Positions 14,201-36,460 of a stretch of 37,527 nucleotides of DNA are shown here, in pieces; the stretch's first letter is position 1, and the number at the start of each line of letters is the position of its first letter. This stretch comes from Candidatus Aerophobota bacterium. GTDB lineage: Bacteria; Aerophobota; Aerophobia; Aerophobales; JAGGXI01. A program made the position numbers and the translations under genes. The notes under the pieces are model-generated. The model was given only the letters and a program-made list of their open reading frames with translations, had not been told where the DNA came from and searched no databases. The stretch covers positions 1 to 37,527 of the forward strand of contig JAGGXI010000056.1 of assembly GCA_021163155.1 (NCBI GenBank), in the 5' to 3' direction.

Positions 14201-14602
14201 TCCTGCTCCTGGGTCATCAGCTATTAAAAAACGAATTCTTGGAAGTTTTAATACATACCCGTAAACAGCTTCAATTTGATGAGGCAGAGGGTCTATTTTT
14301 GATGTGTTCATTGCTAAAAGAGGGTCATATAAAGATGCAAAACGGTAACGAGTTGCCTCAAGAGCTAAAAAAACTTTTCCCGGGTCCTCTGAGCAAATAA
14401 TTTCTGTTCCAATTACAGAAATCTTTGAAAACTCCTCTCGAGAGATAAGCTGGTCAATATGAGAATAGGAAATTGTAGTAACACCAACAATGTGAATATA
14501 TCCTCCAGTTTCCTCAATAAGCTTAATTTCAACGGGTTCTGGCCAATTTAATCCTTTAATAATATTCCCTTGCTTAATATTTTTCATTTCATCTCGTTTC
14601 AT
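11246..14602 (-). CDS. SNF2-like helicase with C-terminal DUF3883 domain
   Basis: 1118 residues. Walker A DDPGAGKT (129-136), DEAH (229-232), TATPH (266-270) and the C-terminal helicase lobe with IIIFTESRDT, VATEAAGEGINLQF and RMGRIHRYGQ show a complete superfamily 2 motor. Acidic and lysine-rich coiled coil lies between the lobes. The last ~120 residues contain LGFDIRSKDKNGNMRYIEVK, matching DUF3883. The GFD...IEVKAR spacing recalls PD-(D/E)xK nucleases, so a nuclease remnant or active nuclease is possible. The ATG overlaps the MNT stop by 4 bp; a second in-frame ATG lies five codons in. DISARM DrmD helicases look similar, but DrmA, DrmB and DrmC are absent here. Confidence 0.88.
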   Translation of the reverse strand: MKRDEMKNIKQGNIIKGLNWPEPVEIKLIEETGGYIHIVGVTTISYSHIDQLISREEFSKISVIGTEIICSEDPGKVFLALEATRYRFASLYDPLLAMNTSKIDPLPHQIEAVYGYVLKLPRIRFLIADDPGAGKTIMAGLIIKELKLRNLIKRVLIVTPGHLKDQWRRELAEKFEEKFLQIDRGLLNALYGENIWLRENQIITSIDFIKKDNVLPSISAAHFDLIIVDEAHKMSAYRYGNKVEKTIRYRLGEILSRKTDHLLFLTATPHKGDPENFRLFLDLLEPGFFATTAMVQESIKNKDNPLFIRRIKEDLKDFEGKLLFLPRHVITKTFNLGADSPDEKNLYNELSRYVNTQYNKALTKDKRRNVAFALVILQRRLASSTYALLESLKRRKNKLENLLKGVQEKDKSREYTFDFDVVEDLSEKERWEEEEMWETLSVAENREELEKEIKIIGILINRAKDIIQKEEEIKLRELKKSLKELEQKYTEQKDKKIIIFTESRDTLEYLKRKIKGQGYTVNVIHGGMKLEDRINAEKIFKNETQILVATEAAGEGINLQFCHLMINYDIPWNPNRLEQRMGRIHRYGQQREVYIFNLVAEDTREGKVLKRLFDKLEEIKKALGTDKVFDCLGEVLYDKNLSQLLLEAAANARNIDEILKDVEPKVDESYIARIKENLGESLATRYIDYTRIKEMAQQAREHRLIPEYTENFFKKAFIKIGGKFHNLKDGFLAIDSVPYELRKIAQDDKFKRSYGQLIRRYPKVTFDKEIAFKNPDVEFISFGHPLFEAVMVWIKTNLSDSLINGATFTDPDGKMNGYILFYEGEIKDGTGNVAGKRLFSFYVNEEKVRPIPPAIIWDLEEEHHLDNSTVDIESLKNKTVKFVIQEIEKYKGETLEERHRQAKIKEKYGIKSLEHLILKLDGDLISLYARKEQGENVNLAIRNKEERKKEYEKALNELKEKINKEKSLTMSMPHFIGIIKVKPKDTIDKAMQSDKEIEQIGMQIVMEYERKKGRAPEDVSSENLGFDIRSKDKNGNMRYIEVKARKEKGAVALTKNEWFKATRFKDEYYLYAIMNATKNPGLYIIQNPAKELKPEEKVEVVRYVIPFEELKEKGEIKL

Positions 14603-22429: not shown

Positions 22430-23062
22430 ATGATTGAGGTGAAAAAGCCAGGCGCAGATAGAAGAAAGTTTAGAGGAGTCATTTTTGATTTAGATGGAGT
22501 ATTGGTAAAATCCCATCTTGATTTTAAACTTATGAGAAGGGAAATTTTTGGTTTTGATTTTAATGAACCCCTGCTTGAGAAAATAAAAAAGATAAGTAAT
22601 CCTACTAAAAAAGATCGAGCCTGGAAAATTTTAGAGAGATATGAGAGAGAAGCTGCTTTAACATCTGAACTCAATGAAGGTATTCCTTTACTTTTGGAGG
22701 TATTAAATAAGAAAAATATTAAAAGTTCTGTTGTAACCAGAAATAGCAAAGAATCCGTAGATATCACTAATGATAGATTCAAGCTAAATTTTAATTTTAT
22801 CGTTACCAGAGATGATGCTCCTCCTAAGCCAGCCAAAGAACCTGTGCTCTTATCCTGTAAGAAAATGGGACTGAAACCCAAAGATGTAATGTTTATCGGC
22901 GACTACGAGTTTGATATGGTATCAGGTAAAGGGGCAGGAACGACGACGGTTTTATTAAAAAATAGTAAACAGCCTTTTTCTCAAAATGCCGATATTATAG
23001 TGGATTCTCTTAAGGATGTTCTTAAAATAATCGATAAAAAAGAAGAAAAAAGTGAGAATTAG
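22430..23062 (+). CDS. HAD-superfamily phosphatase (phosphoglycolate phosphatase-like)
   Basis: 210 residues. Motif I VIFDLDGVL (nucleophile D20, acid D22), motif II VVTRNS, motif III Lys in PPKPAKEPV, and motif IV FIGDYEFDMVSGKGAG are all in place, with an inserted helical cap of about 65 residues, as in HAD subfamily IA. Substrate is unknown. AGGAG lies 11 nt before the ATG, a rather long spacer. The next gene's GTG start overlaps its end by 11 bp, implying coupled translation with the secreted protein. Confidence 0.85.
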   Translation: MIEVKKPGADRRKFRGVIFDLDGVLVKSHLDFKLMRREIFGFDFNEPLLEKIKKISNPTKKDRAWKILERYEREAALTSELNEGIPLLLEVLNKKNIKSSVVTRNSKESVDITNDRFKLNFNFIVTRDDAPPKPAKEPVLLSCKKMGLKPKDVMFIGDYEFDMVSGKGAGTTTVLLKNSKQPFSQNADIIVDSLKDVLKIIDKKEEKSEN

Positions 23063-24965
23063 AAATATTCTGATGTTTCTTTTTACTCTTTTTATTATAT
23101 CTGTTACCTTAAATTCTATTAGTATGTCCTCTCCTGGCGAACCTTTTATTAAGAGTTTATTAATTGTTTCTAACGTGGGAGATAGTATTCCTGACGATGA
23201 AAATAAGATAGTTAAATATAGAGATGAAGTGAATTTATTTGCTGTAATAAAGGATAAAAGAGGAAATTATTATTTGGGGGACGATAATTTTTTCCCTGAT
23301 AAAGTACGTTTAATAAGGGGAAAATTCAAAGAACTCTTAATGATAGGAGAAGGGGTTTACTCTATAGATAAGGGGACCCTTAAAAGGTGGAATAAGAAAG
23401 AATGGGGAGAGTTATCTTTCAACTGGTACAAAGTGATGCCAAAGATGGTACCTTCTCATCCCATTTCAACCTATAAATGGTATTCAAATGTTTTCACCGA
23501 ATACCCTGATGAAGGGGTATGGAGTGGATTTGATACTATAGAATACCAACAGGAGCTTTTGTCTGAGAAGGGTTGGCAAATACATCTACCAGGAGAACCA
23601 GGAACAGTTAGATTTAGAGTGGAGGTAAACTATAATGGGAGGACGGTCTCCTCACCCGGAAGGAACGACCCTTCACAACCAAGCCATATTGCTGCTCAAG
23701 ATTATGACAGGGGTATTAAACCTACAGTGCATAAAATTAGCAGACTTTCTAATCATAAAAATAGATTAATAAGATATATTGAAGCTTTTAAAGGTGTTCC
23801 CTGGTGTTGGGGGGCAGAATATAAAAAAGATGAAGAGCCCACTTCACATCAATCCGAGCTCTCTAATCCTGTCTGTATAGAATGTTCAGATTTGGTAATT
23901 GCCGCTTTAAGAGCTATGGGAAATGAAAATCTTTGCTATACCACGGCGGATGAGATAGCAAGAGGAAAGTATACTAAACCCATAGATAAGAGAGTTTTTA
24001 GGTATCTTCTTCTTGATATTTTTCATAGCTGGATTCCCAAAGGAGTAATTTTCTATAATAATGATTTTTATTTTTGTGGCAAAGGGAAAATCCAGATACG
24101 TGACCGCAATTTCAGGTTAAAAAAAGAGATTAAGAAATCTTCTTTTAATTATATAGATATCGCTATTTCTAATGATGATAGAATATATCTTATAAATGAG
24201 GTAAAAGATACGGAAAGGGAGATACAGGTTCTCGATTTTCAAGGAAATGAGAAAATGCGTTTTAATTTAAAAGTTGAGCGGAGTATAAAGTTAGGCGACC
24301 AGACTTATACTAAAGAATTTTTAGCCAGACCGGAAGGAATCACTATTTCCAAAGAAAATAATGAGATATATTTATTATCTTCTGATGAGGTGTATATTCT
24401 TGATCTAAATGGAAGATTGAAGAAGAGTTTTAAATTAAAAAACCTTTATGGTTCATTTGTTCCTACGGGATATCTTGTTGTGAGGAAAGGTTTAATTTAT
24501 ATTCCTGTTTATGATAAAAAAATCTTAGTTTATAATATGGAAGGCGAGGTAGTAAATAAAATAGTAATGGAAGATGTTGTCTTTGGACTTGATGTTTATG
24601 ATGATAGATTATGTGTAATAAATATAAGCCCTCTTCGAGTTATTCTGTATAAATTGAACGGGGAATTTTTAGAAGATTTCCGAAAAGCAATTGTTGACGA
24701 GAGTGGCGAAAGAATTACTATTCCTATTGGTGAGAAAAAAGATAATTTACATATAGGAGACCTTATTATGACTGGTGAGGAAGAGGCAGAAAACTTTAGT
24801 CATACAATGCTTCTTTATGAAGATTCTAATTTTAACGGTTTTCTGGATGGAGATGATAAAGTTATTTACGCTGGGCATAAAGGAGTTATGATTAGTCCCC
24901 TGGAAGAAAAGTTAAGAGGAAGAGATTTTACTCTTAGAAGATTTGATGGGTCTTTAATAAAATGA
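23052..24965 (+). CDS. Secreted NlpC/P60-like cysteine hydrolase interrupted by a beta-propeller-like insert
   Basis: 637 residues beginning with a signal peptide or anchor (hydrophobic about 6-25). After an N-terminal beta domain (30-200) come PWCWGAEY (250-257) and CIECSDLVIAALRAMG (275-290), matching the Cys half of NlpC/P60 domains, with C278 the likely nucleophile. Residues 331-545 form at least four NHL-like strands repeats (DDRIYLIN, NNEIYLLS, KGLIYIPV, DDRLCVIN). The matching His half follows only after them: IGDLI (568-572) and FSHTMLLYED (H584). Next is an EF-hand-like loop, DSNFNGFLDGDD (591-602). Cell-wall or amide hydrolysis is inferred; the insert is unusual. GTG start overlapping the HAD gene. 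Confidence 0.65.
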   Translation: MRIRNILMFLFTLFIISVTLNSISMSSPGEPFIKSLLIVSNVGDSIPDDENKIVKYRDEVNLFAVIKDKRGNYYLGDDNFFPDKVRLIRGKFKELLMIGEGVYSIDKGTLKRWNKKEWGELSFNWYKVMPKMVPSHPISTYKWYSNVFTEYPDEGVWSGFDTIEYQQELLSEKGWQIHLPGEPGTVRFRVEVNYNGRTVSSPGRNDPSQPSHIAAQDYDRGIKPTVHKISRLSNHKNRLIRYIEAFKGVPWCWGAEYKKDEEPTSHQSELSNPVCIECSDLVIAALRAMGNENLCYTTADEIARGKYTKPIDKRVFRYLLLDIFHSWIPKGVIFYNNDFYFCGKGKIQIRDRNFRLKKEIKKSSFNYIDIAISNDDRIYLINEVKDTEREIQVLDFQGNEKMRFNLKVERSIKLGDQTYTKEFLARPEGITISKENNEIYLLSSDEVYILDLNGRLKKSFKLKNLYGSFVPTGYLVVRKGLIYIPVYDKKILVYNMEGEVVNKIVMEDVVFGLDVYDDRLCVINISPLRVILYKLNGEFLEDFRKAIVDESGERITIPIGEKKDNLHIGDLIMTGEEEAENFSHTMLLYEDSNFNGFLDGDDKVIYAGHKGVMISPLEEKLRGRDFTLRRFDGSLIK

Positions 24966-25111
24966 GGGTATTTAAGGTTGGTTTTATTGAAGTAGCAGGT
25001 GTAGGTGCATTTTTACATAATATTTACACCGGAATTGAGAATATCCTTAAACAGATATTAAGCTCTCAAGGTATCCAGATTCCAACCTCAGATGCATTGC
25101 TTGTTGGTTGA
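24962..25111 (+). pseudogene. Fragment resembling a HepT/HEPN ribonuclease
   Basis: 49 codons starting in an ATGA overlap with the preceding stop. FLHNIYTGIENILKQIL resembles the central helix of HepT-like (DUF86-related) HEPN toxins, and IQIPTSDALL the following loop. The catalytic RxxxxH motif and both ends are missing, so it is a remnant. Its last base pairs overlap the -35 box of the gntR promoter. No MNT partner is adjacent; the nearest MNT gene is 10 kb away on the other strand. Confidence 0.4.
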
Positions 25112-25136
25112 CATTTATTTATTTTTTTTTTATAAT
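25108..25136 (+). promoter_or_regulatory. Consensus sigma70 promoter of the GntR gene
   Basis: Exact consensus TTGACA (25108-25113), 17-bp A/T-rich spacer, TATAAT (25131-25136), 34 bp before the start codon. The strongest promoter I can see in the window. Confidence 0.8.
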
Positions 25137-25170: not shown

Positions 25171-25884
25171 ATGAAACCAATCACAAAAAGCAGTTTATCT
25201 ACTGCTGTAGTTGAAAAAATTGTAGATGCAATTAAGAGGGGAAATTTTAAACCGGGGGATAAACTCCCTTCGATGTATAAACTTAGTGAAGAGTTAAAAG
25301 TAGGCCATAGTTCAATAAGGGAAGGTTTAAAACAACTACAGAGTACAGGTCTTATAGAAATTAAACAAGGAAAGGGTACTTTTATAAGTGAGAGAATAAA
25401 TATTAATTCTCTATCGAGAAATATTGGCCATTTATTAATTTTGCAAAAACCAGATATTTTTTATCTTATAGAAACCAGGATGATAATTGAGCGGGGGACT
25501 GTGAGGCTTGCTACAAAAAGAGCCTCTAAAGATGATATTAAGAAATTATCTCGAATAATTCAAAATATGGAGGCTAATCTAAATAATTTAGAAAATTTTG
25601 TTGAAGAAGATATGTCTTTTCATCTCAAAATAGCTGAGTTTTCAGAAAATCCTATACTCCCTATATTTTTTAACTCTATCCGTGGCTTATTTTTAAAAGA
25701 AGTAGAAGCAGTGGTAAGATTATCTGGAGGGCGAGAAAGAGCAATTAATTACCATAAGAAAATCTATATGGCCATAAAAGACCGTCATAGTGATAGGGCA
25801 ATAAAAGCAATGATTGACCATCTAACAGATATCGAAAAAGCAATTTCTAAATATCTTAATAAAAATCTTAAAGATAATCCCTGA
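25171..25884 (+). CDS. GntR-family regulator, FadR subfamily
   Basis: 237 residues. The N-terminal winged helix includes GNFKPGDKLPSMYKLSEELK and SSIREGLKQLQSTGLIEIKQ. The C-terminal helical FCD ligand domain (about 85-230) has DMSFHLKIAEFS, YHKKIY and MIDHL, with the Asp/His residues that often hold a metal and a carboxylate ligand. FadR-type regulators commonly control organic-acid uptake and breakdown genes beside them, here the TRAP transporter. AGAGGA precedes the ATG. The last two bases of the TGA stop are the first two bases of the repeat element that follows, so insertion may have set the C-terminus. Confidence 0.88.
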   Translation: MKPITKSSLSTAVVEKIVDAIKRGNFKPGDKLPSMYKLSEELKVGHSSIREGLKQLQSTGLIEIKQGKGTFISERININSLSRNIGHLLILQKPDIFYLIETRMIIERGTVRLATKRASKDDIKKLSRIIQNMEANLNNLENFVEEDMSFHLKIAEFSENPILPIFFNSIRGLFLKEVEAVVRLSGGRERAINYHKKIYMAIKDRHSDRAIKAMIDHLTDIEKAISKYLNKNLKDNP

Positions 25885-26105
25885 TTCGGTAATTTGAATA
25901 ATAACCATTAAGTTTATCCTGGAATGTTGTTCTGAGTCTAATCTCCATGAAAATTAAATTTTTTAAAATTTTTTAGGAGCAAAAAATATTTTTCTTTTTT
26001 GGGTAGGGGCGACTTCAGTCGCCCTTTGCAAAACAAGAGTTAGAGGTAATTGGGAGACTAAAGCCTCCCCTACTCAGCCCAATCACTCTAACAGTTTGCC
26101 GAATC
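25883..26105. repeat. Palindromic repeat element R1 with GATTCGGCAA-type ends
   Basis: 223 bp with 10-bp terminal repeats GATTCGGTAA (25883-25892) and TTGCCGAATC (26096-26105), one mismatch. The core has the hairpin GGGCGACTTCAGTCGCCC (26007-26024), a spacer TTTGCAAAACAAGAGTTAGA, and a second imperfect hairpin at 26052-26069. The first 120 bp closely match 30868-30985. No coding capacity. Confidence 0.8.
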
Positions 26106-26144
26106 TGAGGTAATGTAAATAAATAAAGAATTTTTAAGAGAACT

Positions 26145-26202
26145 GTAATATCAAATATTACGCAATCATAAAGGTGAATAGGTAGATTGTATAATGTCTA
26201 CC
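26145..26202. promoter_or_regulatory. Candidate operators and promoter upstream of dctP
   Basis: A perfect palindrome GTAATAT-CAA-ATATTAC (26145-26161) and a second one with arms GGTAGA/TCTACC (26181-26202). The second encloses TATAAT (26190-26195), a possible -10 box with only a weak -35. An operator over the -10 would suit repression by the neighbouring GntR protein; this pairing is inferred. Confidence 0.4.
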
Positions 26203-26326
26203 GCCCTACTTTGTTTAATAAAAATTAGTGGGGTACCAGAATCTATTATACACCAGGAGGTGATATATTAAACTAACCATAGGTAGTTAAAATTAAAGAA
26301 TTTAAAATTATTAAAAGGAGAATCCA

Positions 26327-27379
26327 ATGCATAAAAGTACAAAAGTAATAACTTTAATAACTTTTATTTTGTTTAGTGTAGCAAGTGTAAGTAGCATTGT
26401 TTTTACGGCAGAAACAAAACCTATAGTATTCAAATTGGGTCATTTTGAACCTCCGGATGTATACACTACCATTGAGCATCCTATGGCAGTAGTTTTTAAA
26501 TCCATTGTAGAGGCGAGAACCAATGGTCAAATTAAAGTTGAAATTTACCCCTCTTGCACACTTGGCAAGGAAAGAGAAATGATGGAGAGTACACAACTTG
26601 GGGTTATTCAAGGATGCATCATTGCTGAAGGGACAGTCCCTATTTTCTTCCCATTAATTCAAGTTTTTAGTATACCTTATCTTTTTCCCACTGAGAGTAT
26701 TGGATGGAAGGTAACAGATGGTTCTTTTGGAAAGGAGCTATTTGAAGAGATGCGACGAACCACAGGTTTACGAGTAATAGCTACTGGTCGAGGAGCATTT
26801 CGAAATTTCACTAATAGTAAACATCCTATCCATTCTCCAAAGGATATGAAAGGTTTAAAATTGAGAACAATGCAAATCCCGGCTCATATGGCTATGGTAA
26901 AAGCTTTAGGAGGAGCAGCTACGCCTATATCTTGGGCTGAAATTTATTCTGCTCTTCAAACTGGTGTTGTAGATGGACAGGAAAATCCTGTGGGAATAAT
27001 TGTTTCTGGGAGGTTATACGAGGTACAGAAATATCTTACACTTGATGGTCATGTTTATAGTACCAGTTTCTTTATGATTAACGATGAATGGTTTAAATCT
27101 TTACCAAAATCTTATCAGAAAATTATTCTGGATGCTGGAAGGGCAGCTACTGTAACTGGTAGAGGTGTTTCTCGGTTGCAAGATGCATTAGGTTTGAAGA
27201 AGTTAAAAGATGAAGGAATGGAGGTTTACTCACCTACATCTGAGGAAATGGCTGAGTTTAGAAAACGTTCTCAGGGAACAGTTATTCAATGGTTGAGAGA
27301 GAATGTTAAGGGTTCAGATAAATGGATTGATAAACTTCTTAAGGAAACAGAAGATACAGAGAAAAAGTTAGGGTGGTAA
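26327..27379 (+). CDS. dctP: TRAP transporter substrate-binding protein
   Basis: 350 residues with a signal peptide (about 1-29). The DctP fold is marked by KLGHFEPPDVYTTIEHPMAV near the N-terminus, GLKLRTMQIPAHMAMVKALG with the conserved Arg that clamps the substrate carboxylate, and DGQENPVGIIVSGRLYEVQK. The periplasmic protein hands an organic acid to the DctQM channel, driven by a sodium or proton gradient. The ligand cannot be told from sequence; context suggests an aromatic or methylated acid at most as a guess. AAGGAG lies 7 nt before the ATG. Confidence 0.9.
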   Translation: MHKSTKVITLITFILFSVASVSSIVFTAETKPIVFKLGHFEPPDVYTTIEHPMAVVFKSIVEARTNGQIKVEIYPSCTLGKEREMMESTQLGVIQGCIIAEGTVPIFFPLIQVFSIPYLFPTESIGWKVTDGSFGKELFEEMRRTTGLRVIATGRGAFRNFTNSKHPIHSPKDMKGLKLRTMQIPAHMAMVKALGGAATPISWAEIYSALQTGVVDGQENPVGIIVSGRLYEVQKYLTLDGHVYSTSFFMINDEWFKSLPKSYQKIILDAGRAATVTGRGVSRLQDALGLKKLKDEGMEVYSPTSEEMAEFRKRSQGTVIQWLRENVKGSDKWIDKLLKETEDTEKKLGW

Positions 27380-27399
27380 AAAATCGGTTAGATTACGAA

Positions 27400-27433
27400 A
27401 TAGAACTGGCGGAAAGCTTTCCGCCAGTTCTAT
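27400..27433. terminator. Perfect 34-bp palindrome after dctP
   Basis: Arms ATAGAACTGGCGGAAAG and CTTTCCGCCAGTTCTAT meet without a loop, centred on AAGCTT, 20 bp after the dctP stop. No T run follows, so it may be an RNA-stabilising or attenuating hairpin between dctP and dctQM rather than a classical terminator. Confidence 0.5.
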
Positions 27434-27474
27434 ATAACTTTATAATATATAGAGCTTATTAAAGTTCTCCACCT

Positions 27475-27548
27475 GGGTAGGGGAGGCTTTAGCCTCCCAA
27501 TAGACTCTAACTCTTGTTTTGCAAAGGGCGACTGAAGTCGCCCTACCC
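27475..27548 (-). repeat. Palindromic repeat core R2, reverse orientation
   Basis: 74 bp equal to the core of R1 read on the other strand: GGGAGGCTTTAGCCTCCC, TCTAACTCTTGTTTTGCAAA, GGGCGACTGAAGTCGCCC. The GATTCGGCAA ends are absent; instead CCAC/GTGG flanks it. Fills the dctP-dctQ gap together with the palindrome; nothing else is seen in 27380-27651. Confidence 0.75.
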
Positions 27549-27651
27549 ACAAGTGGGTTGTCTAAAATTTTGGTAGGTTGAAGTAGGTTAAAAATAGAGG
27601 GAAAGAAGTTCTTAAATCGCCTCATATATAATAAAAGCAAAGGCAGAAAAT

Positions 27652-28161
27652 GTGGATAGAATAGTCAAGTTTGTTTTAGTGATAAGTGATATTATTGATA
27701 GGATAGCAGGGTCTATATGCATATTTTTAGGTATAGGTATGACAGTTATTGTGGTAGTAAGTGTTTTTTTTCGATATGTTCTCCTCTCTCCTTTGGTTTG
27801 GGCGGAAGAAATATCAACATTTTTAATGGTATGGTTAGCTATGATGGGGGCAAGTATGGGATTAAAGAAGAATAAACACGTAGGAGTAAATTATATAGTA
27901 GAAAAACTTGTTTCTTCTAAGAGAGTGAAAAAAATAATAAGTATAATAGTTAATGTACTAATTGTAATTTTCTTAATAGTAATGCTAAAGGAAGGATATT
28001 CTCTTTCTCTATTTGCAAAAAATCAAGTATCTCCTGCTATAGGAATATCTATGTTTTGGCCTTATTTTGGGCTTTTGGTAGGAGGATTTATAATGATTGT
28101 ACAGGTGGTATGTCGAATAATAGAAGATTTTAATATGGTTGTACAGAGAAAAACTATTTGA
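27652..28161 (+). CDS. dctQ: TRAP transporter small membrane subunit
   Basis: 169 residues with four membrane helices at about 8-38, 45-65, 85-110 and 125-150. It has the DctQ features RYVLLSPLVWAEEISTFLMV and a lysine-rich loop. GTG start with AAAGG 8 nt upstream; the overlapping ATG one base earlier is out of frame and closes after four codons. DctQ joins DctM and contacts DctP. 58 bp to dctM. Confidence 0.88.
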   Translation: MDRIVKFVLVISDIIDRIAGSICIFLGIGMTVIVVVSVFFRYVLLSPLVWAEEISTFLMVWLAMMGASMGLKKNKHVGVNYIVEKLVSSKRVKKIISIIVNVLIVIFLIVMLKEGYSLSLFAKNQVSPAIGISMFWPYFGLLVGGFIMIVQVVCRIIEDFNMVVQRKTI

Positions 28162-28219
28162 GAGTATGAAAACAATTTAATTAACCAATAATAATTGTAA
28201 TTACTTAAAAAGGAAAAAA

Positions 28220-29509
28220 ATGGCATTAGTTGTTATGACAATAGTTTTTGGTTTATCTTTAATATTAGGTATGCCAATTGCTTTTTGCTTAGGATTGTCT
28301 TCATTGGCTACTTTTATATATATAGGAAATCCCCTGTTTTTAAAGATAATTCCCCAGATGATATTTCAAGGAATAAGTATGTTTTCACTTATGGCGATTC
28401 CTTTCTTTATATTAGCAGGGGAGATAATGAATAAATCGCAAATTACAGATACTATAATAAATTTCGCAAATGTTTTAGTAGGGCATATAAAGGGAGGATT
28501 AGCTCATGTAAATATAATCTCCAGTATATTTTTTGCTGGTATCACAGGAGCAGCCGTAGCGGATACAGCTGCTTTGGGTACGATATTAATACCTGCAATG
28601 GTTCATGAGGGATATGATGAGGATTTTAGTGCGGCTGTTACTGTGTCTTCTTCTGTAATAGGACCAATTATTCCACCCAGTATTGTTATGGTGATTTATG
28701 GGGTAACTATGAAAGTCTCTATCGCTGCTTTGTTTGCTTCAGGATTTGTGCCAGGTCTTCTAATCGGAATTGCATTAATGATTGTAGCTTACTTTATTTC
28801 TAAAAAAAAGGGTTACGGTTATAGAAAGAGAGCATCGTTTCGAGAAATACTATCCAAATCCAGAAAAGCATTTTGGGGTTTACTGATGCCTATTATAATT
28901 TTAGGAGGCATTCTTAGCGGTGTATTTACTCCAACAGAGGCAGCTGCTGTAGCTGTAGTTTATGGGTGTTTTGCTGGTTTCTTTATTTTCCGAACCTTAA
29001 AATTATCTGATTTCCCAGGTATGTTAAAGCGTACCGCAATTACAAGCTCTGTGGTTCTTTTGATAATAGGGAATGCTAAGATTATGGGTTGGATTTTAGC
29101 TTATGAACATATGCCTGAGATTATGGCTAATCTGTTTTTATCAATTACTAATAATCCTTATCTTATGCTTTTATTAATAAATTTACTTTTATTAATTGTA
29201 GGAATGTTTATGGAAATTTCAGCCGCTATTGTACTTTTGGCTCCTATATTAGCGCCTTTAGTTACATCTTTTGGGATTCATCCTCTTCATTTTGCTATCG
29301 TAATGTTAGTTAATTTAAATATTGGTCTTATAACTCCCCCTCTTGGACAATGTTTATTTACAGTTTGTGGTATAACTAATTTATCTATGGAGCAAGTAGT
29401 GAAGGCTACCTTGCCTTTTATTTTAGCAGAAATTGCCGTTCTCATACTAATAACGTATATTCCTGCTTTAACAGCATTTATTCCTCAACTGTTAGGTTAT
29501 TATAAATAA
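28220..29509 (+). CDS. dctM: TRAP transporter large membrane subunit
   Basis: 429 residues, the normal DctM length, with about 12 membrane segments. Characteristic stretches: LMAIPFFILAGEIMNKSQIT, GAAVADTAALGTILIPAM, IIPPSIVMVIYGV, FTPTEAAAVAVVYG, and NLNIGLITPPLGQCLF. It forms the ion-coupled elevator for the acid delivered by DctP. AAGGA precedes the ATG. Completes an intact three-gene TRAP system. Confidence 0.92.
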   Translation: MALVVMTIVFGLSLILGMPIAFCLGLSSLATFIYIGNPLFLKIIPQMIFQGISMFSLMAIPFFILAGEIMNKSQITDTIINFANVLVGHIKGGLAHVNIISSIFFAGITGAAVADTAALGTILIPAMVHEGYDEDFSAAVTVSSSVIGPIIPPSIVMVIYGVTMKVSIAALFASGFVPGLLIGIALMIVAYFISKKKGYGYRKRASFREILSKSRKAFWGLLMPIIILGGILSGVFTPTEAAAVAVVYGCFAGFFIFRTLKLSDFPGMLKRTAITSSVVLLIIGNAKIMGWILAYEHMPEIMANLFLSITNNPYLMLLLINLLLLIVGMFMEISAAIVLLAPILAPLVTSFGIHPLHFAIVMLVNLNIGLITPPLGQCLFTVCGITNLSMEQVVKATLPFILAEIAVLILITYIPALTAFIPQLLGYYK

Positions 29510-29580
29510 TAAAAGTAACTATTCCGTCTGTTCAATTATGGTAATATAAATAAACCTGGGGCTAATTGGCTGTTTAGTGT

Positions 29581-29682
29581 GTAGGGGTAAGGCTAATCGC
29601 CCTTTGCAAAACAAGAGTTAGAGGTAATTGGGAGGCTAAAGCCTCCCCTACCCCGCAGAGAGCTTTAATAGATTGTCGAATC
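29581..29682. repeat. Palindromic repeat R3
   Basis: The core at 29581-29654 matches R1 (CCCTTTGCAAAACAAGAGTT, GGGAGGCTAAAGCCTCCC), but the first hairpin is degenerate (GGTAAGGCTAATCGCC). The right end TTGTCGAATC (29673-29682) has one mismatch to TTGCCGAATC; a left end is not clear. Occupies the dctM-methyltransferase gap. Confidence 0.7.
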
Positions 29683-29746
29683 CTGGGCTAAAGTTAGTAC
29701 AGGGTGCCTGAATAGTTACTAAAAAATATATAGAGGTGTTAAAAAT

Positions 29747-30778
29747 ATGTTTAAAAAAAATTTTTCTCCGAAACGTCGATTTTTATCAGGTCTCTTTGGA
29801 GGGCGTAAAGGACTGCGTATTTCGGTAGGTAATCCCACTTCAATTGTATGTATAGAACTTATGCAAAAAACGGGCATCCATTTTCCCGAGGCTCATCTGG
29901 ATGCTAAGTTAATGGCGGAACTTGCTGCTGCTGGACATGAAATTTTAGATTATGATACTGTAATGCCAGAATTTAGTGTTCAACAGGAAGCTGCAGCACT
30001 TGGTTGTGAAGTTAACTGGGGGAATGATAATATGATGCCGGAAGCCAAAACGCATCCCGTTAAGGAACTTAAGGATATAATTATTCCTGATAATATTTTA
30101 GAAAAACCATCAATTAAAGTTGTTTTGGATGCTATTTCTATTCTTAGAAAAGAATATGGAGATCATATAGCTATTTTGGGTAAAGTAATGGGACCGTGGA
30201 CCATTTCTTATCACCTCGTTGGCACTCAGGAATTTTTGACCTGGGTTATTTTAGCACAGGATAAAATTAGACGTTTTTTAGATGTTTTAAAAGAAGTTAC
30301 CATTATTTTCGGAAAAGCTCAGATGCAGGCTGGAGCAGATGCTATTACTTTAGCTGACCATGCTACAGGAGACCTTGTAAGGCCAGAGACATATCGTGAT
30401 TTTTTGATACCTATTCACCAGGAGATTATTCGAAGAATAGGAGCTCCAATTATTTTGCACATTTGTGGAAATTGCATTGACCGTTTACGTTATTTTGTGG
30501 AAGCTGGTTTTGATGCTTATCATTTTGAATGGCAAGTTGATGCACAAAAAGCCGTTAAAATTGTAAATGGAGAAATGTCCCTTATAGGGAATATTAATAA
30601 TGCAAAGACTTTGTATAATGGTAAACCTGAAGATGTTTATGCTCAGGCTAAGTATAGCATAAAAGCAGGTGTAAACATTCTTGCCCCCGAGTGTTGCATT
30701 CCTCTGCAGACACCTTTGCGCAATCTAAAGGCCATTGTGGAAGCAGCAAAAGATGGATATCGAGAAACGGATAGATGA
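29747..30778 (+). CDS. MtaA/CmuA-type cobamide methyltransferase (uroporphyrinogen decarboxylase fold)
   Basis: 343 residues, close to MtaA in length. Zinc ligands align as H238-x-C240 in ILHICGN and C316/C317 in APECCIP, the positions known for methanogen MtaA. These enzymes move a methyl group between a corrinoid and a thiol; true uroporphyrinogen decarboxylases lack this zinc site. No corrinoid protein or B12 riboswitch is adjacent, so the methyl donor is open. GAGGTG lies 8 nt before the ATG. Its position after a TRAP transporter suggests it works on an imported compound or shares its regulation. Confidence 0.8.
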   Translation: MFKKNFSPKRRFLSGLFGGRKGLRISVGNPTSIVCIELMQKTGIHFPEAHLDAKLMAELAAAGHEILDYDTVMPEFSVQQEAAALGCEVNWGNDNMMPEAKTHPVKELKDIIIPDNILEKPSIKVVLDAISILRKEYGDHIAILGKVMGPWTISYHLVGTQEFLTWVILAQDKIRRFLDVLKEVTIIFGKAQMQAGADAITLADHATGDLVRPETYRDFLIPIHQEIIRRIGAPIILHICGNCIDRLRYFVEAGFDAYHFEWQVDAQKAVKIVNGEMSLIGNINNAKTLYNGKPEDVYAQAKYSIKAGVNILAPECCIPLQTPLRNLKAIVEAAKDGYRETDR

Positions 30779-30799
30779 GATTTTATCATTTCTCTAATT

Positions 30800-30827
30800 T
30801 TGACATCTTGCCGTAATGTGTTAAAAT
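30800..30827 (+). promoter_or_regulatory. Candidate promoter of the activase gene
   Basis: TTGACA (30800-30805), 16-bp spacer, TAAAAT (30822-30827). The palindromic element R4 then lies inside the resulting 270-nt leader. Confidence 0.5.
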
Positions 30828-30867
30828 CAAAAAATATGTTTTTAGATTTTCACCTATTTTAAACCCG

Positions 30868-31064
30868 GATTCGGCAATTTGAATAATGACTATTAAGTTT
30901 ATCCTGGAATATTGTTCTGAGTCTAATCTTAATGAAGATTAAATTTTTTAGGAGCAAAAAATATTTTTCTTTTTTGGGTAGGGGTGACTTCAGTCGCCCT
31001 TTGCATAGGGAACGGTCGCGACCGTTACCTACCCAGGCCAAGCACTCTCACAGTTTGCCGAATC
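30868..31064. repeat. Palindromic repeat element R4 with perfect GATTCGGCAA ends
   Basis: 197 bp with exact 10-bp terminal repeats (30868-30877, 31055-31064). The left 120 bp and first hairpin TGACTTCAGTCGCCC match R1. The second hairpin is replaced by an unrelated one, GGGAACGGTCGCGACCGTTACC, showing that stem sequences are exchanged between copies while the ends are kept. Confidence 0.8.
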
Positions 31065-31099
31065 TATGTTAAACCTTTTTTGGAATGGAGGATTAAGGG

Positions 31100-34000
31100 A
31101 TGAATTCAAAAAGGAAAGATAAATACTTATTAGGACTTGATTTAGGTTCTATAAGTGTGAACGCTATAATTATAGATAAAGAAGGGAAAATTGCTTATGA
31201 GGAGGGTTATACCCGACATAATGGTAAGCCCCTGGAGACAGCCTACCAAATTGTAAAAAAAATAGCTAAAATGTATTATTTTGAACATATAGGAGTTACT
31301 GGTTCCAATGGAGAGCATCTTAGTAAAGAATGGGATATTCCTTATTTAGAGGAAGTAATAGCTCAGGCTAAGGGTATTTACCATCTCCATCCTGAAGTAA
31401 AGACAGTTATAGATATAGGGGGAGGCGACGCCAAATTTATTACCCTTAATGAGAGAGGAGAAGTAAAGGATTTCGGGATGAATAGTAGTTGTGCTTCTGG
31501 AACAGGCTCTTTTTTAGACCAGCAGGCAAAAAGGTTAGGGCTGAATATAGAAAATGAATTTGCAGAAGAGGCTTTAAAATCTACCAATCCTGCTCGTATT
31601 GCTGGAAGATGTGCTGTATTTGCTAAGACAGATATGATTCATCTCCAACAAAAAGCTACTCCTAATAGGGATATAACTATGGGGTTATGTGAAGCTTTAG
31701 CCAGAAGCTATAAGAGTAGTATTGCTCGAGGGAAAAGCTTTATCTCTCCTATATCATTTCAGGGAGGGGTAGCTGCCAATAAGGCAATGGTTGTTGCTTT
31801 TAGAAAAGTTTTAAAAGGTAAAGAGATAATCGTTTCTGAACATCATTACTCTATAGGAGCTTTAGGGGCAGCACTTTTTTTAAGGGAAAATAACGAGAAG
31901 AAAAAATTTGATTTATCAAATTTAAAAAAAGAGTTTTCCTTAAGCAGAGAGAGCGAAGCTTTGCCAAAACTCTCCTTAAATTATCAAGAAGAAAAATCTT
32001 ACTTAAAAGAAAAGTTTTATGATTTTGACGGAAATGGAGAGTTGATAGATGCTTATATAGGTATAGATATAGGCTCTGTAAGCACCAATGTAGCAGTAAT
32101 CGATAAAAAGAAGCGCCTTTTAGCTAAAAGTTATCTTCCCACTGCAGGAAAACCTATTGATGCTATGCAAAAGGGGTTAAAAGAGGTTAGAGATATTGTG
32201 GAAGGAAAAGTAAGAATCAAGGGAGTGGGAACTACAGGCTCGGGTAGATATATGATCGGAGCTTTTGTAGGAGCAGATGTAATTAAAAATGAGATTACAT
32301 CTCAAGCTAAGGGAGCATTAAATGTTAACTCAAATGTAGATACAATATTTGAAATTGGAGGTCAGGATTCAAAATATATCAGTTTAAAGAATGGAGTAAT
32401 AGTTGATTTCACCATGAATAAAGCCTGTGCTGCAGGCACAGGTTCCTTTCTTGAAGAACAGGCTGAAGGATTAAAGATAAATATTAAAAGAGAATTTGAA
32501 AAGATAGCTTTTTCCAGTGATAGTCCAGCCAATTTAGGCGATAGATGCACTGTATTTATGGAGTCCTCTTTATTTGAGCATCTTCAAAGGGGAGTTCCTG
32601 TCCCCAATTTAGTAGCAGGTTTAGCTTATTCCATAGCTTATAACTATTTAAATAAGGTAGTAGAAAATAGGAGAATAGGAGAGAATATCTTTTTTCAAGG
32701 AGGAACAGCCTGTAATAAATCTGTAGTAGCTGCTTTTGAGAATATTTTAAAAAGAAAAATAACTGTTCCTCCACATAATGAGGTTTTAGGAGCAATTGGA
32801 GTAGCTATTGTGGCTATGGAAGAGAAGATTAAGAAAAGCAAATTTAAAGGGTTCAGTTTAAGTGATGTAAGTTATAGAATGGAGTCTTTCGAGTGCCAGG
32901 ATTGTCCCAACCATTGCAAAGTTAACCAGGTTTGGATTAAAGGGAAGGAGAAACCCTTAACTTATGGCGATAGATGTGGTAAATATAGTGAAAAAGAGGG
33001 AAGAGCAAAAACGAAAAGTGTGCCAAATTTATTTAAAGAAAGAGATAAATTATTATTTTATAGAAGAAAGAAAAAAGGACAAAAAGGGAAAATTGGTATA
33101 CCTCGCGCTCTTTATAATTTTGAACTCTTTCCTTTGTGGGAAAATTTCTTTACAGAATTAGGCTATGAAGTTGTTCTCTCAGACAAAACTAACGATATAA
33201 TTATAGATAGGGGAGTAGAAATAGTGGTTGGTGAACCCTGTTTTCCTATCAAAGTTGCTCATGGTCATATATTAAATCTTTTGGAGAAGAGGATAGATTA
33301 TATATTTTTGCCAAGTTTGATTGACTTAAAAAAAACTGATGAAAATCTAAAAAGAAGCTATAATTGTCCCTGGTCTCAATCTCTTCCTTATTCCGTTAAT
33401 TCAGTTATTAATAGAAAAGAGTACCCAGTTAAATTTCTTGAGCCTGAGATATCTTTAAGGGTAGGGGTAGAAAAAGCCTTAAATAAGATAGGAAAAGAGC
33501 TTGGAGAAAAACCATCTAATATTAAAAAGGCTATTGAGGTGGCTGAGGAAGCTCAATCTCAATTTTACAGGGATTTAAAAAAGAAAGGGAAAGAGGTATT
33601 AAAAAATTTAAAAGGAAAGAAAGCCTTTATTTTAGTTTCTCGACCTTATAATGGATGCGATCCGGGGTTAAATTTGGATATAGTTGAGAAGATGAGAGAT
33701 TTAGGAATGCTGGCTATTCCTATGGATTTTTTAAATTTATCTTTTTTCCCTATTTATGAAGATTATCCTAATATGTATTGGGGATATGGGCAAAGGATTA
33801 TTGCTGCAGCCAAAGCAATTAAGAGTACTAATAATCTTTATTCTATATATATTACCAATTTTGGTTGTGGGCCAGATTCTTTTATTACCAAATACTTTGA
33901 TGAAGAGATGGATAGACCCTGGTTAGAACTCCAAATAGATGAGCATAGCGCAGAGGCTGGTATCATTACTCGGTTAGAAGCTTTTCTGGATAGTATTAAA

Positions 34001-35278
34001 AACAAGAAAATCGGAAAAAAGAAAAAATTTAAAAGCCCCGAAAAATTAACTTTAAAGGACGAGCAAAGGACAATCTATATCCCTTATATGGATGACCATT
34101 CTTATGCTCTGGAAGCTGCTCTGAAGGCACTGGGCAAAAAAGCAAAAGTTATGGAGGTTAGTGACTCAGATTCTCTGCAAAGAGGACAGAGATATACCAG
34201 TGGCAAAGAATGCTATCCTTGCGTTTTAACTACAGGGGATATGCTTAAAGTGATAAGTAAGAATGGACATCACCCTGAAAATATTGCTTTTTTTATGGGA
34301 ACAGCACAAGGTCCTTGTAGGTTTGGACAATATTATGATTTTCAAAGATATCTTTTAAAAAGGCTTGGTTATTCAGATATTCCTATAATTTCTCTTGATT
34401 CAGAAAATAGCTATGGAGGCTATGGAGTAAAATTTACTAAATTAGCCTGGGAGGGCATCGCAGCTATAGATATATTAAGAAAGGTTCAAAGAATTATAAG
34501 GGCAGATGAAATAAACAGAGGAGAAACAAATAAAGTATATTTAAAGTATAGAGATAAAGTTCGCCAGATAATTAGCGAAGGAAAAAGTGTAACAAATATA
34601 ATGAAAGAGGCAGCCAAAGCTTTTGGGAAAATAGATAGAGAGAATAAAGATAAACCTGTAGTGACAATAGTAGGAGAAATATATATAAGGCATAATCCTT
34701 ATGCTAATGAGTTTCTCATAGATGAATTAGAGAAATTAGGGCTAAAGGTTGAATTAGCCTCTATGAGAGAGTGGTTTATGTATACCAATGAGGTGCATAA
34801 AATAGTTGCCTTAACTGAAGAAGGTTGGTGGGAGTTAATTAAAAATAGAGTAAGAAATCTATTTCAAAGAAAAATTGAAGAAAGACTTGATGCTCCTTTT
34901 AAATCTTTAACGAAGGGATATGAGGAACCAGATGTAAGTGAAGTCCTTACTTTAGGAGAAAAGTATGTAGATAGATCTTTAAGGGGAGAAGCTATCTTAA
35001 CCATAGGAAAAACTATACACTCCATAAAAAGGGGTAGGGATGGGGTAGTGAATGTGATGCCTTTTACCTGCATGCCGGGGAATATATCTTCCGCTGTAAT
35101 TCCTCAGATAGAGAAAGATTATCCTGATTTTCCTATTCTTAGCTTATCTTACGATGGTTCTCGTCAAGCTAATTATTTAAACAAGGTAAGGACATTTGCT
35201 TTTCAGGTGTATAGCCATCATAGAAAATCAGTAAATAGTAAGAAGAGGCTAAACCCAGGATTTCAATTACGAGAATGA
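31100..35278 (+). CDS. Giant acyl-CoA dehydratase activase (two BcrAD/BadFG domains, DUF2229, HgdB-like)
   Basis: 1392 residues. Two ASKHA ATPase domains in tandem: LGLDLGSISVNAI with SCASGTGSF and GRCAVF (C131, C171), and IGIDIGSVSTNVA (321-333) with ACAAGTGSF and DRCTVF (C443, C483). Each Cys pair is of the kind that bridges a [4Fe-4S] cluster between activase subunits. A cysteine knot CQDCPNHC (599-606), a DUF2229 region from about 660 (IGIPRALYNFE, GEPCFPIKVAHGH) and an HgdB-like C-terminal half (RPYNGCDPG, NFGCGPDSF, GKECYPC, GPCRFGQY) follow. HgdC-type activases use ATP to send single electrons to 2-hydroxyacyl-CoA dehydratases or benzoyl-CoA reductases. The role of the fused giants is unknown. 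GGAGG at 8 nt. Confidence 0.88.
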   Translation: MNSKRKDKYLLGLDLGSISVNAIIIDKEGKIAYEEGYTRHNGKPLETAYQIVKKIAKMYYFEHIGVTGSNGEHLSKEWDIPYLEEVIAQAKGIYHLHPEVKTVIDIGGGDAKFITLNERGEVKDFGMNSSCASGTGSFLDQQAKRLGLNIENEFAEEALKSTNPARIAGRCAVFAKTDMIHLQQKATPNRDITMGLCEALARSYKSSIARGKSFISPISFQGGVAANKAMVVAFRKVLKGKEIIVSEHHYSIGALGAALFLRENNEKKKFDLSNLKKEFSLSRESEALPKLSLNYQEEKSYLKEKFYDFDGNGELIDAYIGIDIGSVSTNVAVIDKKKRLLAKSYLPTAGKPIDAMQKGLKEVRDIVEGKVRIKGVGTTGSGRYMIGAFVGADVIKNEITSQAKGALNVNSNVDTIFEIGGQDSKYISLKNGVIVDFTMNKACAAGTGSFLEEQAEGLKINIKREFEKIAFSSDSPANLGDRCTVFMESSLFEHLQRGVPVPNLVAGLAYSIAYNYLNKVVENRRIGENIFFQGGTACNKSVVAAFENILKRKITVPPHNEVLGAIGVAIVAMEEKIKKSKFKGFSLSDVSYRMESFECQDCPNHCKVNQVWIKGKEKPLTYGDRCGKYSEKEGRAKTKSVPNLFKERDKLLFYRRKKKGQKGKIGIPRALYNFELFPLWENFFTELGYEVVLSDKTNDIIIDRGVEIVVGEPCFPIKVAHGHILNLLEKRIDYIFLPSLIDLKKTDENLKRSYNCPWSQSLPYSVNSVINRKEYPVKFLEPEISLRVGVEKALNKIGKELGEKPSNIKKAIEVAEEAQSQFYRDLKKKGKEVLKNLKGKKAFILVSRPYNGCDPGLNLDIVEKMRDLGMLAIPMDFLNLSFFPIYEDYPNMYWGYGQRIIAAAKAIKSTNNLYSIYITNFGCGPDSFITKYFDEEMDRPWLELQIDEHSAEAGIITRLEAFLDSIKNKKIGKKKKFKSPEKLTLKDEQRTIYIPYMDDHSYALEAALKALGKKAKVMEVSDSDSLQRGQRYTSGKECYPCVLTTGDMLKVISKNGHHPENIAFFMGTAQGPCRFGQYYDFQRYLLKRLGYSDIPIISLDSENSYGGYGVKFTKLAWEGIAAIDILRKVQRIIRADEINRGETNKVYLKYRDKVRQIISEGKSVTNIMKEAAKAFGKIDRENKDKPVVTIVGEIYIRHNPYANEFLIDELEKLGLKVELASMREWFMYTNEVHKIVALTEEGWWELIKNRVRNLFQRKIEERLDAPFKSLTKGYEEPDVSEVLTLGEKYVDRSLRGEAILTIGKTIHSIKRGRDGVVNVMPFTCMPGNISSAVIPQIEKDYPDFPILSLSYDGSRQANYLNKVRTFAFQVYSHHRKSVNSKKRLNPGFQLRE

Positions 35279-35284
35279 AAAATC

Positions 35285-36460
35285 TTACTTCAGATTCAGG
35301 TAAGATTGAACTATATCCTTAGACCATCTTCTATAATCTTTAAGATGCCAATCCTTTTTTGACCCTTCTTTTCCCATAGCTAAATCTTTAATGCCGCACC
35401 TTGCATCTGTGCAATAAAGGCAATTTCCTTTGCATTTACAGGCAGGATAAAATTTTCCTCTCTCTCTTTTGTATACAGGTATATCTATTCCTTCACAATT
35501 GTACGAGCTCATAAATTCCTTATTTAATCCTTTAATTTCCCCATTTTTAATCTCGTATTCCATACATAGGGCAAAAGTTAAATTTCTTCTCTCACAAATA
35601 TTGCGTAAAGAGTCAAATATTCTTTTTCGATAGTCTATGTTAGCATGGAGAGAAGTACCTATATTTTCTTTATAGAGTCTTTGGTGGTTCCACTTCATTC
35701 CTGTCCCAAAGTATTTTTCTAAATTAGAAAAGATACTATTCTTAATCTTAAGAGGGATGTCTAAAACACTGGCAATAATATGGGTAACTCCCTTTGACTT
35801 AGCTCTTTCTATTATTTCCGTTAAATCCTTTATCTTATCAGTAATATAAGGTAAGATTGGGTCGATACGGCAAACAGCGAAAATTCCTTTTTTAGCTAAT
35901 CTTTCAAAATTCTTAAATAAAATTTCTGTTGAAGCACCATTGGGAGAAAGGATTTTTCTTAAATTCTCATGAGGCGTAAGGATGGAGACCTGCCCAAAAG
36001 AATGTTTTTGCTCCTTCATCAGTTCTAACACTTCTTGAGGGATTTTAGCTTTGGTAATAAACTCAATGGGGATATTTTTTTCTATGAATACTTTTATTAT
36101 ATTTTCTGAAAGATGATATTTTTCATTTAACTTTTGAAAAGGGTCTGTCACCGGGCTTAAGTAGCCACAGGAAGCAACATTAATAGAATCGAGCTGTTTA
36201 GCAATACTTTTGTCAAAATCCTTTGCTACAGTGATAACGCCTTTTTCTCTAAATATCTGGAAGTATCCAGGGAAAGCAAGACTGTAGCAGAAAAAGCATC
36301 CTATTCCACATCCATTATATGGATTAATAAGCATCCTCTCAGAAGTGCATTCTCTTTTCCCTGGCCACCATCCATGAAGTTCCTTTTTTGTAGAAATGAG
36401 AATGTGCCTTTGCGGCTTATCTATAATCTTATAATCCTTTTTATTTATTCTGATTTTCAT
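35285..36460 (-). CDS. SPL-like radical SAM protein with C-terminal cysteine cluster
   Basis: 391 residues. The radical SAM cluster motif is C51-x3-C55-x2-C58 in NGCGIGCFFCY, and INPYNGC before it places the protein with spore photoproduct lyase-related radical SAM proteins (Rv2578c-type). After the barrel (about 45-300) a second cysteine group appears near the C-terminus, CKCKGNCLYCTDARC, probably an auxiliary iron-sulfur site. Substrate unknown. No clear ribosome site before the ATG; it lies 20 bp after the DUF1464 gene and may rely on coupling. It converges on the activase gene with a 6-bp gap. Confidence 0.8.
   Translation of the reverse strand: MKIRINKKDYKIIDKPQRHILISTKKELHGWWPGKRECTSERMLINPYNGCGIGCFFCYSLAFPGYFQIFREKGVITVAKDFDKSIAKQLDSINVASCGYLSPVTDPFQKLNEKYHLSENIIKVFIEKNIPIEFITKAKIPQEVLELMKEQKHSFGQVSILTPHENLRKILSPNGASTEILFKNFERLAKKGIFAVCRIDPILPYITDKIKDLTEIIERAKSKGVTHIIASVLDIPLKIKNSIFSNLEKYFGTGMKWNHQRLYKENIGTSLHANIDYRKRIFDSLRNICERRNLTFALCMEYEIKNGEIKGLNKEFMSSYNCEGIDIPVYKRERGKFYPACKCKGNCLYCTDARCGIKDLAMGKEGSKKDWHLKDYRRWSKDIVQSYLNLK

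Follow-up and report, generated by a model that had tools for sequence, protein, structure and literature searches.

A GntR-TRAP-MtaA-like methyltransferase gene group and an adjacent fused activase, probably separate units, in a Candidatus Aerophobota genome

We analyzed a 37,527-nucleotide stretch of DNA from a Candidatus Aerophobota bacterium (assembly GCA_021163155.1, contig JAGGXI010000056.1), hereafter the window, which is one whole contig (C84) of a 1.83-Mb genome of 119 contigs that is 93% complete. Six open genes, all on the plus strand, lie contiguously over 10.1 kb (25171-35278) and encode a GntR/FadR-type regulator, a TRAP transporter, an MtaA-like methyltransferase, and a giant fused activase. 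A first-pass annotation had described these parts as co-oriented, which is correct, and had joined them into one regulon and pathway, an idea that holds in part for the GntR-TRAP-MtaA genes and fails for the activase. We consider it fairly probable that the interval consists of two independent units, GntR-TRAP-MtaA (25171-30778) and the activase (31100-35278), with the functions proposed below. The Pfam scan covered 21 of the 24 window open reading frames (ORFs) of at least 90 amino acids kept by the ORF caller. The genes, with the one that follows them, are as follows.

25171..25884, plus strand: GntR/FadR-type regulator with FCD ligand domain (PF00392/PF07729); top NCBIfam match NanR, under its cut-off
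26327..27379, plus strand: TRAP solute-binding protein DctP (PF03480, above cut-off)
27652..28161, plus strand: TRAP small permease DctQ (PF04290, above cut-off)
28220..29509, plus strand: TRAP large permease DctM (PF06808, above cut-off)
29747..30778, plus strand: MtaA/CmuA-family (URO-D) methyltransferase with zinc ligands H238, C240, and C316
31100..35278, plus strand: 1392-amino-acid fused activase with two BadF/BcrA-type ATPase domains, an HgdB-like DUF2229 module, and a second HgdA/B-like module
35285-36460, minus strand: radical SAM gene after the activase

The transporter is complete, with DctP, DctQ, and DctM all exceeding their Pfam cut-offs, and the genome holds three full-length DctM genes, including that of the window, plus one fragment. 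Pfam gave no acyl-coenzyme A (CoA) pathway gene among the six genes and the two downstream of them, the second of which is a DUF1464 gene on the minus strand.

The MtaA-like protein belongs to the MtaA/CmuA family (TIGR01463, 275 bits against a cut-off of 235.4), and its closest solved structure is the methylcobalamin:coenzyme M (CoM) methyltransferase 4ay7 (E 1.4e-61). Its zinc ligands are intact, as had been annotated, and align with the HxC and C of 4ay7; the same His-Cys-Cys ligands occur in 86/86 aligned rows, among them two paralogues on contig C25 of the same genome. URO-D family membership and zinc ligands are common to this protein, the soluble CoM methyltransferases MtaA and MtbA, and the MtaA-like proteins (Mlps). 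Unlike MtaA and MtbA, the window enzyme follows a TRAP importer, has no adjoining corrinoid protein, and scores too low for the equivalogs (287.8 bits against a cut-off of 400 for MtaA, NF040654; 211 against 600 for MtbA). Kountz and Balskus (PMC10418091) argue that URO-D methyltransferases with a His-Cys-Cys site act on S or Se, whereas O-acting enzymes have replaced one cysteine and show carboxylates or ligand losses at the zinc site. S/Se rather than O chemistry is favored here because the His-Cys-Cys site is conserved.

Relatives of the MtaA-like protein were sought with a four-protein alignment in one genome per species, across 84,980 species. The scan recovers only proteins carrying two peptide patterns, and the best 80 of at least 344 loci were taken. 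Partner genes were counted by tblastn (E≤1e-5) in these loci, many of which are cut by contig ends. A corrinoid (B12-binding) protein was found in 43/80 loci, RACo in 27, a 2-hydroxyacid dehydrogenase in 23, Pterin_bind in 22, DctM in 7, a GntR/FCD regulator in 6, HpcH in 5, and RraA in 1. The activase was found in 0/80 loci, as was any MttB/MtmB homologue. Among the 46 loci flanked by 4 kb or more on each side, 28 had the corrinoid protein, 6 had DctM, and none had the activase. At one locus (L085), Pfam confirmed the partners as two further URO-D proteins, B12-binding, Pterin_bind, and RACo. A protein of 212 to 226 amino acids is encoded upstream of the MtaA-like gene in 29/80 loci (L085-L164) and also in L068 and L069; the two members tested had no Pfam match, and it occurs in Poribacteria, Latescibacterota, SAR202, and others.

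In the tree, the window and its closest orthologue, from a genome of the same order (G005), grouped with 18 loci apart from the other 64 rows (support 100/99), in a clade of 22 rows that includes two paralogous outgroup rows. The MtaA-like relatives, mostly from metagenome-assembled genomes (MAGs), go with corrinoid proteins, activators, and folate-type methyltransferases and, in one clade, with TRAP importers and FadR regulators. In the clade of the window, the corrinoid protein is present in 15/18 loci, the three without a match lying on contigs of 3.8 to 10 kb; the window and G005 are exceptions in having no corrinoid gene next door. Seven of the 18 loci (L085, L088, L090, L098, L100, L105, and L107) carry a TRAP transporter. 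A corrinoid protein accompanies it in every case, and a GntR/FCD gene is present as well in four (L098, L100, L105, and L107). In L098, from a Desulfobacterales MAG, a FadR regulator, TRAP, the MtaA-like protein, further URO-D proteins, a corrinoid protein, a folate-type methyltransferase, and RACo all stand together, and parts of this type of cluster are found in the other six. Since DctM was not found in 73/80 loci, the TRAP link is confined to one clade.

Type 1 mlp clusters, as described in PMC10418091, likewise contain a His-Cys-Cys MtaA-like protein, and they share with many of the relatives' loci the corrinoid protein and RACo. The window differs from them in its single Mlp and in the lack of a corrinoid or Ram protein nearby; its contig holds one URO-D match and no corrinoid or RACo match. 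The Pterin_bind gene of 22/80 relatives' loci is of the folate-methyltransferase type that the type 1 definition of that paper excludes. PF00809 had no match on the window contig, which stops 6.7 kb past the MtaA-like gene, the type 1 criterion spanning 20 kb. The window's gene set is a variant of the corrinoid methyltransferase clusters already known.

The TRAP association was compared with the DctM background of 79 of the 80 genomes (that of L161 was left out). The threshold for DctM was E≤1e-3 for 34 genomes and E≤1e-40 for the remaining 45, a difference that may slightly lower the expectation. Loci holding DctM numbered 7 against 1.97 expected (p ~0.002), and those with a same-strand DctM no more than 3 kb away numbered 6 against 0.38 (p ~5e-7), both p-values being too small because the seven TRAP loci represent about four lineages and are not independent. 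For the window itself, whose genome has four DctM matches, the probability that a same-strand DctM would lie within 3 kb by chance was 0.007, a value computed post hoc.

A GntR-TRAP-methyltransferase unit for uptake plus methyl transfer is therefore plausible. In such a unit, the FadR-type regulator would control the import of an organic acid anion by TRAP, and the MtaA-like zinc enzyme would move a methyl group between a heteroatom of the substrate (S or Se being favored) and a corrinoid partner provided in trans. From the corrinoid, the methyl group would pass on to tetrahydrofolate, and a RACo-type activator would hold the corrinoid reduced.

Possible trans partners are encoded elsewhere in the genome. 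The lack of a corrinoid protein reported in the first-pass annotation applies to the window contig and not to the genome, where a six-frame search gave nine B12-binding_2 matches on eight other contigs, eight near full length and some at contig ends; contigs with corrinoid proteins include C25, C39, C48, C58, C114, and C115. The genome also has one RACo (C109) and a Pterin_bind protein directly after MTHFR (C69); with the corrinoid proteins, these may serve the window's enzyme. Three of the corrinoid genes lie beside MttB homologues (three, two cut by contig ends) and two beside MtmB homologues. The two MtmB homologues (L179 1244-2614 and L182 4271-5665; 456 and 464 amino acids) have no in-frame stop.

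MtbA and MtaA serve as second methyltransferases for such systems in methanogens. The window enzyme, a member of the MtaA/CmuA family in a genome that has MttB and MtmB homologues beside corrinoid proteins, might accordingly be a general second methyltransferase that stands behind TRAP by accident, and the TRAP proteins of the relatives' loci are not close to those of the window. We regard this as rather unlikely, given that none of the 80 relatives' loci has an MttB/MtmB homologue, that only 1/16 same-order genomes has a close orthologue, and that TRAP is enriched near the clade.

The same genome has a second TRAP/methyltransferase locus on C25 (L082, 9436-14658), with the order DctP-DctQ-corrinoid-URO-D-URO-D; the called ORFs of this locus include no DctM. 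The window DctP is 37% identical to the DctP beside this corrinoid protein and 36% identical to that of another genome of the order (G011). Its PDB matches are for the most part generic TRAP binders, along with sialic acid and isethionate binders, and this mixture allows no decision on the substrate.

For a TRAP-fed system, the zinc site, read in the light of PMC10418091, favors a methylthio- or sulphonio-type acid as the predicted substrate. We tentatively suggest that L098-type clusters may import and S-demethylate such acids (for example, methylmercaptopropionate or dimethylsulphoniopropionate) and that the window may be a pared-down version with its corrinoid protein in trans. The position of the G005 orthologue among hydroxy- or sugar-acid-like genes and the dehydrogenase in 23/80 loci count against an acid of this type. 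These observations would suit a first unit with oxygen chemistry, in which the MtaA-like protein would take part in breaking down O-methylated or hydroxylated sugar acids, followed downstream by a 2-hydroxyacid dehydrogenase and aldolases; that dehydrogenase, HpcH, and RraA all stand beside the G005 orthologue. Sugar acids are frequent targets of the FadR and TRAP families. The 86/86 His-Cys-Cys rows, a site tied to S/Se enzymes in PMC10418091, speak against oxygen chemistry, which we hold to be unlikely; it overlaps with the two-unit reading, and the odds of the readings do not add to one.

By Pfam, the 1392-amino-acid fusion consists of two BcrAD_BadFG stretches and DUF2229, followed by a further C-terminal part. 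The cysteine pairs C131/C171 and C443/C483 of its ATPase domains are invariant in eight aligned proteins, as are C714, C756, and C923 and C1038, C1073, and C1324; activators of 2-hydroxyacyl-CoA dehydratases have paired Fe-S cysteines in their ATPase domains. The ATPase domains match 4eht, 1hux, and 7yyl_E. In a structure model of residues 636-1392 (eight sequences; mean pLDDT 70.8, pTM 0.70), residues ~636-969 match HadBC ((R)-2-hydroxyisocaproyl-CoA dehydratase), BzdNO, 3-methylbenzoyl-CoA reductase, and the double-cubane protein, with Z of 11.2 to 14.5 against 8.7 for the next row and 9 to 16% identity over 261 to 274 residues. The annotated HgdB-like label agrees with this fold match and not with Pfam, which gave no PF06050 (HgdB-type) match in the fusion at E≤0.001; an HgdB-type component is supported by the model.

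Two genomes, G061 and the same-order G007, carry a split version as separate adjacent genes (L199 and L200). There, an activase of 309 to 321 amino acids matches both ATPase halves of the fusion, a protein of 315 to 317 matches the DUF2229 module, and one of 354 to 361 matches residues 992 to 1352-1378 and also ~677-966 at 22%. Because the split genomes hold these matching separate genes, the fusion is best read, on comparison and modeling, as a putative activator, activator, HgdB-like, and HgdA/B-like component on a single chain. Separate dehydratase subunits, rightly said to be absent from the window, need not be missing, because two dehydratase-like modules seem to lie within the fusion. 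Its ATPase domains and the fold of its DUF2229 module are common to dehydratase activators and components, benzoyl-CoA reductases, and DCCP:DCCP-R; unlike these, it places two ATPase and two dehydratase-like modules on one 1392-amino-acid chain. It appears to be an activator/dehydratase-like machine that has been joined on one chain and retained across an order.

An activase match is present in 15/16 genomes of the same order (none in G009), fused in 14 of them at 65 to 75% identity (three cut by contig ends) and split in G007 at 44%. A close MtaA-like orthologue was found only in G005 (1/16; 76%), the next best in the order being 28% identical. We mapped 14 same-order activase loci by BLASTP against the window proteins, which distant TRAP or URO-D types may escape; two loci stop inside the gene at the 3' side, and three have no visible upstream neighbor. 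No MtaA-like gene was found in these 14 loci, several of which are cut by contig ends. A 137-amino-acid flavodoxin-like gene directly follows the fusion in 11/14 (e.g., L070 8738-9151), and a TPR gene is present in 9/14; the window activase has neither neighbor. The 137-amino-acid protein has no Pfam match, "flavodoxin-like" being a reading of its sequence, and is a candidate electron donor for the activase; a search for it elsewhere in the window's genome, run without a positive control, gave no match.

These distributions bear on the single regulon of the first-pass annotation, in which uptake through TRAP, cobamide-dependent methyl transfer, and one-electron CoA activation would together serve a methylated or hydroxylated acid. 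The contiguous, co-oriented genes, the lack of a terminator-like site in the gap that separates the MtaA-like gene from the activase, and a TRAP set near the activase in G011 speak for it. We nevertheless consider it very improbable, because the activase was found in none of the 80 MtaA-type loci and the MtaA-like gene in none of the 14 activase loci, contig ends cutting many of the former and several of the latter, and because the activase is order-wide and the MtaA-like gene is not. The annotation had named as its own refutation the finding of the MtaA-like and activase genes apart from the transporter in most relatives; this is what the survey of neighborhoods gave for the activase, whereas the GntR-TRAP-MtaA part survived to a degree, in one clade, above the DctM background. 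The activase most likely lies outside the GntR-TRAP-methyltransferase unit and would be an order-wide, ATP-driven electron-transfer protein placed beside it by rearrangement.

Gene order on the two flanks is consistent with such a rearrangement. In G004 and G013, which belong to one genus, homologues (51 to 52% identity) of the window's 637-amino-acid gene at 23052-24965 lie ~3 kb upstream of the activase, and three other genes occupy the place of GntR-TRAP-MtaA. In G005, the MtaA-like gene is followed by DUF488 and then by a radical SAM gene (L067 3216-4403) that is 69% identical to that of the window and has the same relative orientation; DUF488 stands where the window has the activase, and no activase lies within 4.8 kb in this direction or 12 kb in the opposite one. 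Since the flanks match separate neighborhoods, these few genomes suggest that two older neighborhoods were joined at the window.

We also examined the region for promoters, operators, terminators, and repeats.

25108..25136, plus strand: promoter-like TTGACA-17-TATAAT (12/12), 35 bases before the GntR start
30800..30827, plus strand: promoter-like TTGACA-16-TAAAAT with TG (11/12), after the MtaA-like gene and 273 bases before the activase start
25995-26095, plus strand: dispersed palindromic repeat of ~100 bp
27473-27552, minus strand: second copy of the dispersed palindromic repeat

Sites of 12/12 averaged 0.01 per shuffle of the region, and 17/200 shuffles equaled its number of sites of at least 11/12 (two); promoter-like sites as a whole showed no excess (35 against 38.8 in shuffles), and only the two top-scoring ones were taken into account. 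The site before the activase would speak, weakly, for a separate activase unit and against a single regulon. A scan for the FadR-like TNGTN3ACNA gave no site in the gaps between the six genes. The perfect 7-3-7 palindrome at 26145-26161, which precedes dctP, was considered as a shared operator and rejected, having no good second copy; at up to three mismatches it had 6 matches against 4.85 expected. Further pieces of the dispersed repeat, read by eye, lie in the gaps at ~29590-29650 and ~30970-31000. Genome-wide, it has 98 candidate places, and all 40 of the 40 scored matched at 82 to 94% identity, the query itself excepted. Because the gaps are partly made of this repeat, gap length is a poor guide to operons.

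Several observations weigh against the two-unit reading, in addition to the non-independence of the TRAP loci. The window's DctP, DctM, and GntR proteins are only 24 to 29% identical to those tested from TRAP-bearing loci, so the pairing was not inherited as one cassette. The six-frame search found no corrinoid protein on the window contig, and BLAST found none in the 18 kb surrounding the G005 orthologue, which is accompanied not by TRAP but by genes for RraA, a 2-hydroxyacid dehydrogenase, an HpcH aldolase, and ABC permeases. With five intergenic gaps of 58 to 442 bp, the genes may or may not form an operon, and the absence of a terminator-like site after the MtaA-like gene makes read-through into the activase possible. 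Finally, a TRAP set does lie near the activase in 1/14 same-order loci (G011), made up of other proteins than those of the window.

The comparison tells a misleading adjacency, that of the activase, apart from a likely real association of TRAP/FadR, MtaA, and corrinoid proteins, and TRAP-fed, corrinoid-dependent acid demethylation becomes directly testable. Our literature search found no description combining MtaA, corrinoid, and a TRAP transporter; the passages retrieved that join uroporphyrinogen decarboxylase, a TRAP transporter, and corrinoid concern dehalogenase clusters. Elsewhere in the window, on the minus strand at 5998-14602, DUF499, a DUF1156 methylase, and a helicase with NOV_C stand in a row that resembles a phage-defence type cluster.

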